From assembly GCA_903921785.1 (NCBI GenBank), contig CAIXRH010000090.1:1-42874 (forward strand): 42,874 bases of DNA, read 5' to 3'. The stretch's first letter is position 1; the number at the start of each line of letters is the position of its first letter. Made by a program: the position numbers and the translations under genes. This document shows, piece by piece, positions 30,258 to 42,874 of the stretch. The stretch comes from an uncultured Pseudomonadota bacterium. GTDB taxonomy: Bacteria > Myxococcota_A > UBA796 > SXON01. Under the pieces are notes generated by a model. That model was given only the letters and a program-made list of their open reading frames with translations, did not search any database and was not told the origin of the DNA.

Positions 30258-31574
30258 ATGACCCTCCTCTACCTGCTCGCCTGCGTCGACAGCCCTGACG
30301 CACTCGACTCCGCCGACCCCGCCGATTCCGGCGACACGGCGGATACCGCTGCCGACGGCTTCGTCGAGGAGGAGGTCCTCTGCGCCGCCCCCGCGGTGGA
30401 CGTCGAGGGGGACGGCCTGGAGTGGTCGGTGACCACGGAGCACTACCGCCTGGACATCGCGGGGTTCGACGAGGCCGAGGCCACGCAGCTCGGCACCCTC
30501 GCGGAGGTCGCGTGGAGCGGGCTGTCCGCGTACTTCCGCGGCGACGTGGACGGTCGGCTGGAGGTCTTCATCGCCGCCGACCAGGCGGGCTTCGCGGCGC
30601 AGCTCGCCGCGGACGGCATCTCCGGCCTGGAGGGCGCGGGCGGCTACTACGACCCCACCACCCGTCGCGCCTACCTCTTCCGGCAGCCCACGGCCTACTA
30701 CAGCCGGGTCCTGATGCTGCACGAGCTCGTGCACCAGTACCAGGACCATCGCAGCGCGATCAGCGGCCTGCCCGGCTGGTATGTCGAGGGGCTGGCGGAG
30801 GCGCTGTCGCGGCACCATTGGGACGGAGAGTGCCTGCAGCTGCGCGTCCGGTCGCTTTTGAGCTGGGAGGACCCCGCGGCTGCCGCGAGCGCGGAGTTGG
30901 ACGCCGCTCCGCCCGATCTGGCCAGCGTGCTCGGCGGCGGCGCGGTGAGCCGGCCCGTTGCCCAGGAGCTCGTGCGGCTGCTCTCCAGCGATCCGGCGCT
31001 GGCGCCGTCGTTCGACGACTGGCGCGCCCGGGTCGCCTCGGGCGCCGTGTCCGCGAGCGACGTCTCGGCCTTCGAGGCCGCGGTCCTCCCGCTCGGCGAC
31101 CTCTCCGACGCGCTCCTGGACTTCGTCCCCCGGGACCAGGAGCCGCTCCGTCCGCTCTACCTGGACTGGATTCCCCAGGCCGCGGACCAGGCCTACGGCT
31201 TCTCGGCGGCCAGCGCGGCGGCCCGGGTCAAGGGCGAGGTCCAGCGGTTCGACATGGAGATCGCCTGGCCCGAGGCGGGCAGCGTGGGCACCGTCTACGG
31301 CTACGACCCCGCCACGGGCGACCTGGAGCTGGCCTTCCTCTCCGCGGACGGCAGCGTCTCCCGCTTCGCCGTGATCGGGGGCGTGGTCACCTGGGACGGG
31401 TACGGCGCCGTGACCGCGGAAGACGCACCTTCCTGGTCCCAGACCGCCGCTGCCGACCACACGACGGTCACCGTGGGCGGCGGCAGCGTGGACCTGCCCC
31501 GGGCGCTGGCGCCCGCCGGGGGCCTCGCGCTCTACGGCGCCGCGGCCGTCTTCTCGGGGTTGAGCTGGGAGTGA
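30258..31574 (+). CDS. lipoprotein zinc metallopeptidase (HEXXH, gluzincin-like)
   Basis: A 438-residue lipoprotein. MTLLYLLAC places the lipidated cysteine at residue 9 with no basic residue, followed by an Asp/Ala/Thr-rich tether to about 33. The peptidase motif HELVHQYQDH gives H155, E156 and H159. WYVEGLAEAL supplies the third zinc ligand, probably E177. This spacing is typical of gluzincin-type peptidases. The C-terminal 170 residues have no recognisable domain. It is expected to act at the outer membrane or cell surface on an unknown protein or peptide. It is transcribed alone. Confidence 0.8.
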   Translation: MTLLYLLACVDSPDALDSADPADSGDTADTAADGFVEEEVLCAAPAVDVEGDGLEWSVTTEHYRLDIAGFDEAEATQLGTLAEVAWSGLSAYFRGDVDGRLEVFIAADQAGFAAQLAADGISGLEGAGGYYDPTTRRAYLFRQPTAYYSRVLMLHELVHQYQDHRSAISGLPGWYVEGLAEALSRHHWDGECLQLRVRSLLSWEDPAAAASAELDAAPPDLASVLGGGAVSRPVAQELVRLLSSDPALAPSFDDWRARVASGAVSASDVSAFEAAVLPLGDLSDALLDFVPRDQEPLRPLYLDWIPQAADQAYGFSAASAAARVKGEVQRFDMEIAWPEAGSVGTVYGYDPATGDLELAFLSADGSVSRFAVIGGVVTWDGYGAVTAEDAPSWSQTAAADHTTVTVGGGSVDLPRALAPAGGLALYGAAAVFSGLSWE

Positions 31575-41884: not shown

Positions 41885-41914
41885 TTGGCGACGTGACGCG
41901 CGGGCGGCTACCGT
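41885..41914 (+). promoter_or_regulatory. candidate promoter of the selenocysteine peroxiredoxin gene
   Basis: TTGGCG (41885-41890), an 18-base spacer and TACCGT (41909-41914) precede the ATG at 41925. The transcription start would be near 41921, leaving only a few leader bases and no Shine-Dalgarno. Confidence 0.5.
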
Positions 41915-41924
41915 GGCCGCACCC

Positions 41925-42524
41925 ATGCTCCACCTCCTCCTCGCGTGCACCACCACGCCGGGCGACTCCGTCGCCCTCCTCGACACCGGCGCCGCCGACA
42001 CGGCGGACTCTGCGGGCGACTCCGTCGACACCGTGGACGTCGACACCGCGCTGGACATCCACGGCAACTGGGCCACCGACCGCATCCCGGCGCCCGAGTT
42101 CACCGCCACCAATCGGGATGAGTCCGCCCGGAGCCGGCCCGACCTCCTCGGCCACCCCACCGCCATCTGGTTCTACCCAGCGGCCGGGACCTCTGGGTGA
42201 ACCGTCGAGGGTTGCGGGTACCGCGACCTCCAGGATGACTTCGATGCGCTCGGCGTGAAGATCGTGGGCGTGAGCTTCGACTCCCCGTCGGCGAACCAGT
42301 CGTGGGCCGAGAAAGAAGGGTTCACCTTCGAGCTCTGGTCCGACGACGACAAGACCCTCGCCCTGACCTACGGCTCGGTGACCAAGGACTCGGCTCCGTT
42401 CGCCGGGCGGGTCACCCGGATCCTCGACAGCGACGGCTCGCTCCTCGTCGAGTACGACGCGGTGGCGGTGGGGACCAGCCCGTACGAGGTTTTGGCGGAT
42501 GCGACGCTGATTTACGGGCAGTGA
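41925..42524 (+). CDS. peroxiredoxin (PrxQ/BCP-type) lipoprotein with selenocysteine encoded by TGA
   Basis: A 199-residue lipoprotein read through one in-frame TGA (42198-42200). MLHLLLAC gives a lipidated cysteine at residue 8. A tether rich in Asp, Thr, Ala and Ser reaches about residue 45, and a complete thioredoxin-fold peroxiredoxin domain follows. Before the TGA the frame reads IWFYPAAGTSG and after it TVEGCGYRDLQ, which aligns with the PrxQ active site (FYP...PGC-T-x-E-x-C-x-x-RD). The TGA therefore replaces the peroxidatic Cys (residue 92), and C97 is the resolving Cys at the PrxQ +5 position. The downstream part (VKIVGVSFDSP, WSDDDKTLALTYG) is intact to TGA 42522. A hairpin fitting bacterial SECIS rules starts six bases after the TGA. 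A pseudogene is the alternative but explains neither placement nor hairpin. Confidence 0.82.
42207..42230 (+). promoter_or_regulatory. candidate bacterial SECIS hairpin
   Basis: Arms 42207-42217 and 42221-42230 pair over about ten base pairs, including G-U wobble and one bulged G, closing a three-base loop GTA (42218-42220). The loop G is 18 bases past the TGA. Published bacterial SECIS rules require a small apical loop with a G among its first two bases, about 16-37 bases after the UGA; this fits. SelB would bind here. The stem lies within the coding sequence, as usual in bacteria. Confidence 0.7.
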
Positions 42525-42525
42525 G

Positions 42526-42874
42526 GGGCGCCAGCGGCCTCCCCAACGCCCGGATCGCCCCCGCGGCCGTGCAGAACCCCCGGAGGTTCGTGAACCTCGG
42601 CGAGTTGTGAGCGACCGGAGGCCGTGAAGCGTGCACAAGCGGCGGCGATTGCCCGACCTCGGCGGCTTGTGCACGTCGGCGGGCGCCGGCGGCCACCGCG
42701 ACGCCCGGATCGCCGCCGCGGCCGTGCAGAACCCCCGGAGGTTGGTGAACCTCGGCGAGTTGTGAGGGCCTGGAGGCCGTGAAGCGTGCACAAGTGGCGG
42801 CGATCGCCCCGACTGGGGCGGGTTGTGCGCGTCGGCGGGCGCCGGCGGCCACCGCGACGCCCGGATCGCCGCCG
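42526..42874. repeat. 155-156 bp tandem repeat running off the right edge
   Basis: Units begin at 42526, 42681 and 42837 with GGGCGCC; the first two are complete (155 and 156 bases) and the third is cut by the window end. Each unit holds an inverted pair GAGGTT...AACCTC and a second hairpin with arms GTGCACAAG and CTTGTGCAC (exact in unit 1, degraded in unit 2). The units are about 85 to 90 per cent alike. They are non-coding and resemble the GCACAAC palindrome array at 34206-34440 in motif style and spacing. Confidence 0.85.

Follow-up and report, generated by a model that had tools for sequence, protein, structure and literature searches.

A predicted selenocysteine peroxiredoxin with a lipoprotein-type N-terminus in uncultured Myxococcota

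In the contig analysed here (42,874 nucleotides, referred to as the window), a peroxiredoxin-like reading frame carries an in-frame TGA at the site of the catalytic cysteine and begins with a very short hydrophobic segment ending in a cysteine. The question raised by this locus is whether the TGA is read as selenocysteine (Sec) and whether the product leaves the cytoplasm. Comparison with homologous genes makes it very probable that Sec replaces the peroxidatic cysteine in an exported lipoprotein of the PrxQ type.

Reading frame and peroxiredoxin domain

The gene forms a single frame on the forward strand, broken solely by the TGA at codon 92, with the following features:

41925..42524, + strand: predicted Sec-peroxiredoxin lipoprotein gene, 199 codons including the internal TGA, plus the stop TGA
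41913..41915, + strand: alternative in-frame GTG start
42087..42443, + strand: AhpC/TSA peroxiredoxin domain (Pfam PF00578, 86.9 bits; the whole-genome hit has the same coordinates)
42198..42200, + strand: in-frame TGA, predicted Sec92, at the peroxidatic Cys site of the motif PxxxTxxU
42213..42215, + strand: TGC codon of the resolving Cys97, within the 5' arm of the hairpin described below
42522..42524, + strand: terminal TGA, serving as ordinary stop

As the preliminary description of this DNA had anticipated, ORF calling cuts the gene in two (41913-42200 and 42255-42524), and rereading of 41925-42524 confirmed an intact frame on both sides of the TGA, likewise open in 65 homologous genes. 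The same description had placed the TGA on the peroxidatic cysteine of a PrxQ/BCP-type protein with a resolving Cys at +5; phmmer indeed aligned codon 92 to the catalytic Cys of solved PrxQ/BCP proteins (GTSGCTVEG vs STPGCTTEG in 5iph, E=3.4e-15), and Cys97 falls on the PrxQ resolving position. Window positions 42526-42874 contain two copies of a GC-rich repeat unit of ~155 bases (91-93% identical), reaching the contig end.

The AlphaFold2 model, built from 30 sequences, has a pLDDT of about 98 in most blocks of the peroxiredoxin domain and low confidence in the region preceding it, and its best Foldseek matches are Xanthomonas campestris PrxQ structures (5iow/5iiz, E about 1e-13). In the model, helix 90-101 has residue 92 close to its start, which is also where the peroxidatic residue sits in fully folded PrxQ. 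The protein thus combines an AhpC/TSA domain and a thioredoxin-like peroxiredoxin fold with a peroxidatic residue (here Sec) in PxxxTxxC and a resolving Cys at +5 in helix alpha-2. By sequence it is of the PrxQ type and not a BCP equivalog, scoring 70.9 bits against a cut-off of 140 for the thioredoxin-dependent thiol peroxidase model NCBIfam NF006960, and it reaches 25.6 of the 270 bits required for PrxU (NCBIfam NF040737).

Evidence for selenocysteine decoding

Homologues were sought in 142 relatives, and 70 loci were read base by base. Strong matches interrupted by one internal TGA are spread over the genus, family, order and beyond. The catalytic codon is TGA in 65 loci, TGC (Cys) in four and TCC (Ser) in one, with intact downstream frames; the 65 TGA-form genes come from 59 genomes, namely the source organism and 58 relatives. 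A stop followed by decay of the downstream frame in relatives, named in the preliminary description as one observation that would speak against decoding, was not encountered: the site holds TGA or, rarely, Cys. Thirty aligned homologues share 38-69% identity and an invariant Arg (R162 in A1), and Cys is present at +5 in 63 of the 65 Sec forms. In a tree built by a quick method from 145 columns, with many forks unresolved, 63 Sec forms make up one clade (SH-aLRT 99). The congeneric Cys forms L040 and L044 are nested within this clade, and they are therefore best read as Sec-to-Cys reversions.

Three further loci depart from the common layout. In L075 (genome G050) the peroxidatic residue is Ser (TCC) and the resolving one Thr, with frame and lipobox intact; this gene is probably a catalytically dead paralogue. 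L086 (G067) and L087 (G108) are Sec-BCP genes of cytoplasmic type, devoid of signal and tether; the hairpin of L086 is the same as in the lipoprotein form, and L087 has a different one and no Cys at the +5 resolving position. Comparison of the window and 35 loci revealed no conserved surroundings of the gene: the sole frames to recur widely were those that overlap it. In genus g2 (L033, L034, L036, L037 and L039) the peroxiredoxin gene lies ~3.7-6.2 kb from selA, and the genes in between appear unrelated (one locus read).

A candidate SECIS element follows the TGA:

42210..42228, + strand: SECIS hairpin GGUUGCGG-GUA-CCGCGACC, from comparative conservation and folding
42218..42220, + strand: apical loop GUA (first base G in 64 of 65 genes, second always U, third A or U)

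The stem consists of eight pairs, one of them U-G, or of nine with a closing G-U. The loop G lies 18 bases from the A of the TGA, as had been described earlier, but the spacing between TGA and hairpin is 9 nt (8 if the closing pair is counted) and not 6. Its position just after the UGA and the G in a small apical loop agree with the bacterial SECIS type. Across homologues the 19 bases beginning 9 nt past the TGA read GGTTGCGGGT[A/T]CCGCGACC, forming a stem of 8 bp capped by a GUA or GUU loop, and the hairpin GGUUGCGG-GU[A/U]-CCGCGACC is near-invariant in the 65 TGA-form genes. In particular, the Gly codon at one hairpin site is GGT in 63 of 64 cases vs 15% elsewhere (P about 3e-50), and the codon at another is GGG in 64 of 65 vs 19% elsewhere (P about 5e-45), both P values being upper-end figures in which related genes are counted as independent. 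At the hairpin sites the Cys forms L040 and L044 have GGC, GGT or GGC, and GAT, with the SECIS bases lost. The fold energy by itself stands out only modestly (z about -2), and the stem hardly varies, so that a covariation test found no compensatory changes. The strong evidence for the SECIS is comparative and not energetic, as near-invariant synonymous bases are kept against the genes' own codon preference. An Rfam scan of the window gave no match, and the pattern TGA...GGTTGCGGGT occurred three times genome-wide, with no excess over the reversed control (2+2). The RNA model R1 matched only the Sec-peroxiredoxin gene in its own genome, which suggests that other selenoprotein genes in this genome use different hairpins.

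The genome containing the window (contig C90) is a MAG of 7.48 Mb and 96% completeness, taken to belong to the Myxococcota. The search for selA, selB, selC and selD proposed in the preliminary description recovered the full set, namely SelA (458.3 bits, cut-off 267.9), SelB (312.8 bits, cut-off 242), SelD (385.5 bits, cut-off 125) and one tRNA-Sec above the Rfam threshold, with the anticodon TCA (UCA) by ARAGORN. This complete machinery, the retention of TGA in relatives and the near-invariant synonymous SECIS bases together support the proposal that the UGA is decoded by SelA/SelB/SelC. Among 142 genomes, selA accompanies the TGA form in 56 of 59 cases and occurs in 43 of the 83 genomes that do not have this form (Fisher P = 6e-9, with no correction for relatedness). 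Of the three TGA-form genomes devoid of selA, two have a tRNA-Sec scoring above threshold; the remaining one is a bin of 77% completeness. Genomes G034 and G025, which carry the Cys-form peroxiredoxins L040 and L044, encode SelA and keep the TGA in a TlpA-like family (L209 and L212) described below; no tRNA-Sec above the gathering score was found in these two genomes.

Lipoprotein-type N-terminus and a second putatively exported family

The N-terminal part of the deduced protein consists of two segments:

41925..41948, + strand: ultra-short signal MLHLLLA followed by the lipobox Cys8 (Cys codon 41946-41948); homologues share the arrangement, and in several the frame allows no longer start
41949..42062, + strand: flexible tether rich in D/T/S/A, residues 9-46, with low model confidence

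The hydrophobic segment and lipobox Cys (MLHLLLAC) recur in about 63 of 70 homologues. Only 7 residues precede the Cys and none of them is Lys or Arg, whereas textbook lipoprotein signals are longer and have a basic n-region; initiation at the GTG at 41913 would give a segment of 12 instead of 8 residues up to the lipobox Cys, with 11 before it. A regular expression located the lipobox near the start codon in 55 of the 70 homologues, and inspection by eye added eight (L044, L050, L059, L068, L074, L077, L079 and L081). Among the remainder, L038 is ambiguous, L054 and L061 are truncated or gapped, L066 and L076 have no lipobox Cys, and L086 and L087 are of the cytoplasmic type already mentioned. 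The tether spans 13 to 95 residues where measured and is mostly acidic, of low complexity and rich in D, T, S, G and A (e.g., DTDTDT, DADADA), its sequence being otherwise unconserved. In several homologues an upstream in-frame stop permits just 11-12 residues through the Cys, the ATG included (MLLLLLAC, MMILLVAC, MTLLLFLAC). The conserved N-terminal layout supports the earlier proposal of an exported lipoprotein with a DT-rich tether, and its occurrence in about 63 of 70 homologues makes lipoprotein export look ancestral to the clade.

The atypical signal lowers the certainty of the lipoprotein claim; it does not single out this gene, the pattern being common in the genome. Of the 16 lipobox candidates in 443 kb of genome sequence, 11 have signals of 11 residues or fewer including the Cys, with the reservation that the script takes the shortest ATG start and only frame-limited cases are strict. 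Cysteine is generally rare in proteins; in the same 443 kb it is the commonest residue at the lipobox place (11 cases), followed by Ala (10) and Leu (7). Ultra-short lipobox signals were seen in the window at 30258-31574 (+), in L170 (2768), L173 (323, -) and L181 (2880, -), and in L215-L234; the recurrent forms comprise 7-11 residues including the Cys (e.g., MTLLYLLAC, MLLLLAC, MVLLLLLGC, MLLLIVLAC), some bounded by an upstream in-frame stop. As other lipobox proteins of the genome share them, short lipoprotein signals seem to be characteristic of the lineage.

Besides the gene in the window, one of the 27 AhpC/TSA matches in the genome contains a TGA:

L184 770-1468 (= G000:C249:20769-21467), - strand: second exported Sec candidate, with lipobox, TSP3-like acidic repeats, TlpA-like domain and UxxC

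Its TlpA-like domain has the motif FWUGACQSE, and the TGA is followed by a perfect hairpin, CGAGGCC-GGG-GGCCTCG. Members of this family in relatives have the TGA at the same codon, with tandem copies in several genomes, and Cys forms also occur; most close homologues retain the hairpin GAGGCCGG[N]GGCCTC. The family may be part of the UGSC or UGC TlpA groups already published (PMC2398784, PMC13188914). By analogy only, its product is a candidate electron donor for the Sec peroxiredoxin.

Alternative readings, proposed mechanism and known relatives

A single in-frame stop that makes gene callers split the frame is what a pseudogene or a sequencing error would also produce; recurrence of the same TGA in 65 genes from 59 genomes, each with an open downstream frame, rules this explanation out and leaves its probability negligible. 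Translation of the UGA as Trp or Cys, or termination at it, with no selenoprotein made, could draw on the fact that the ordinary stop of the same gene is also UGA. This is very improbable given the full Sec machinery, the invariable placement of the TGA at the catalytic Cys site, the hairpin conserved at synonymous bases, and an exchange of TGA only with Cys and once with Ser, in a copy that has also lost the resolving Cys.

Two other readings accept Sec and differ on location or function. That the N-terminus has been misjudged and the Sec peroxiredoxin stays cytoplasmic would fit the seven residues before the Cys, none of them basic, and the existence of L086 and L087; it is nevertheless improbable, since about 63 of 70 homologues keep the hydrophobic segment and lipobox Cys followed by a mostly acidic tether, an upstream stop rules out a longer start in several of them, and the same short signals occur on other lipobox proteins of the genome. 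An exported Sec redoxin that does not remove peroxide but oxidises thiols, takes part in signalling or repairs envelope proteins would be compatible with the lack of a conserved gene neighbourhood and with the coexisting Sec TlpA-like family. We regard it as unlikely in view of the retained PxxxTxxU motif, resolving Cys at +5, invariant Arg and PrxQ fold.

For the exported Sec peroxiredoxin, we infer the following course of events. The hairpin just past the UGA would be bound by SelB with Sec-tRNA(Sec), which would insert Sec; the short hydrophobic N-terminus and lipobox would direct export and lipidation, and the disordered acidic tether would keep the domain off the membrane. By PrxQ chemistry, Sec92 would attack H2O2 or lipid hydroperoxides, then form a selenenyl-sulfide with Cys97 and be re-reduced by an envelope thiol donor, a role for which the exported TlpA-type UxxC Sec protein of the same genomes is a speculative candidate. 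More broadly, and tentatively, the lineage might use selenium in an extracytoplasmic defence against peroxides, in which a lipid-anchored Sec peroxiredoxin is re-reduced by lipid-anchored Sec TlpA-like redoxins (UxxC), both exported by signals of ~7-10 residues lacking a basic n-region.

Selenoproteins have rarely been described at the cell envelope. Here Sec is apparently used in a catalytic envelope lipoprotein throughout an uncultured lineage, and cell-surface oxidant chemistry may thus be under selection strong enough to pay for Sec decoding. The locus also illustrates how a widely conserved Sec gene is split or truncated by standard annotation, offers natural Cys variants for comparison of Sec with Cys, and raises the question of how Sec proteins stay reduced outside the cytoplasm.

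Sec peroxiredoxins with PxxxTxxU are established (PMC13188914, PMC1088965); 43 such Sec peroxiredoxin genes have been listed (PMC1088965), and the myxobacterium Anaeromyxobacter dehalogenans has three Sec peroxiredoxins (PMC1794560). None of these three papers describes them as lipoproteins or as carrying a signal peptide, and an open-access literature search returned neither a Sec peroxiredoxin lipoprotein nor Myxococcota selenoproteins. PxxxTxxU Sec peroxiredoxins are already known and, as far as the literature searched shows, the lipoprotein-tethered clade is undescribed.

The hairpin resembles the E. coli fdhF SECIS in its 5' arm and loop, GGUUGC[A/G]GGU: 9 of 10 bases are the same (fdhF ggttgcaggt), and in both the stem is immediately followed by the G and U of the loop. 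The distance to the UGA is 2 nt shorter than in fdhF, and a G stands here opposite the U that the fdhF element leaves unpaired. The TlpA-like family shares FWUG[SA]C in a TlpA-like domain with the UGSC/UGC TlpA-type metagenome selenoproteins (PMC2398784, PMC13188914), and differs from them in its lipobox and TSP3-like acidic repeats. PrxU of Eubacterium acidaminophilum is likewise a Sec peroxiredoxin, although of a different peroxiredoxin subgroup. With PrxQ/BCP proteins (COG1225-type) the present protein shares the AhpC/TSA domain, the fold, the peroxidatic motif and the resolving Cys at +5, whereas it has Sec for the peroxidatic Cys, a lipobox and a long acidic tether, and is ~30% identical to solved PrxQ. 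Finally, it has the Sec at the peroxidatic site and the PxxxTxxU motif in common with the bacterial Sec peroxiredoxins (TxxU, COG1225) of the Sargasso Sea and deltaproteobacterial sets; unlike these, the present clade is tethered and, among the genomes searched, is confined to uncultured Myxococcota.
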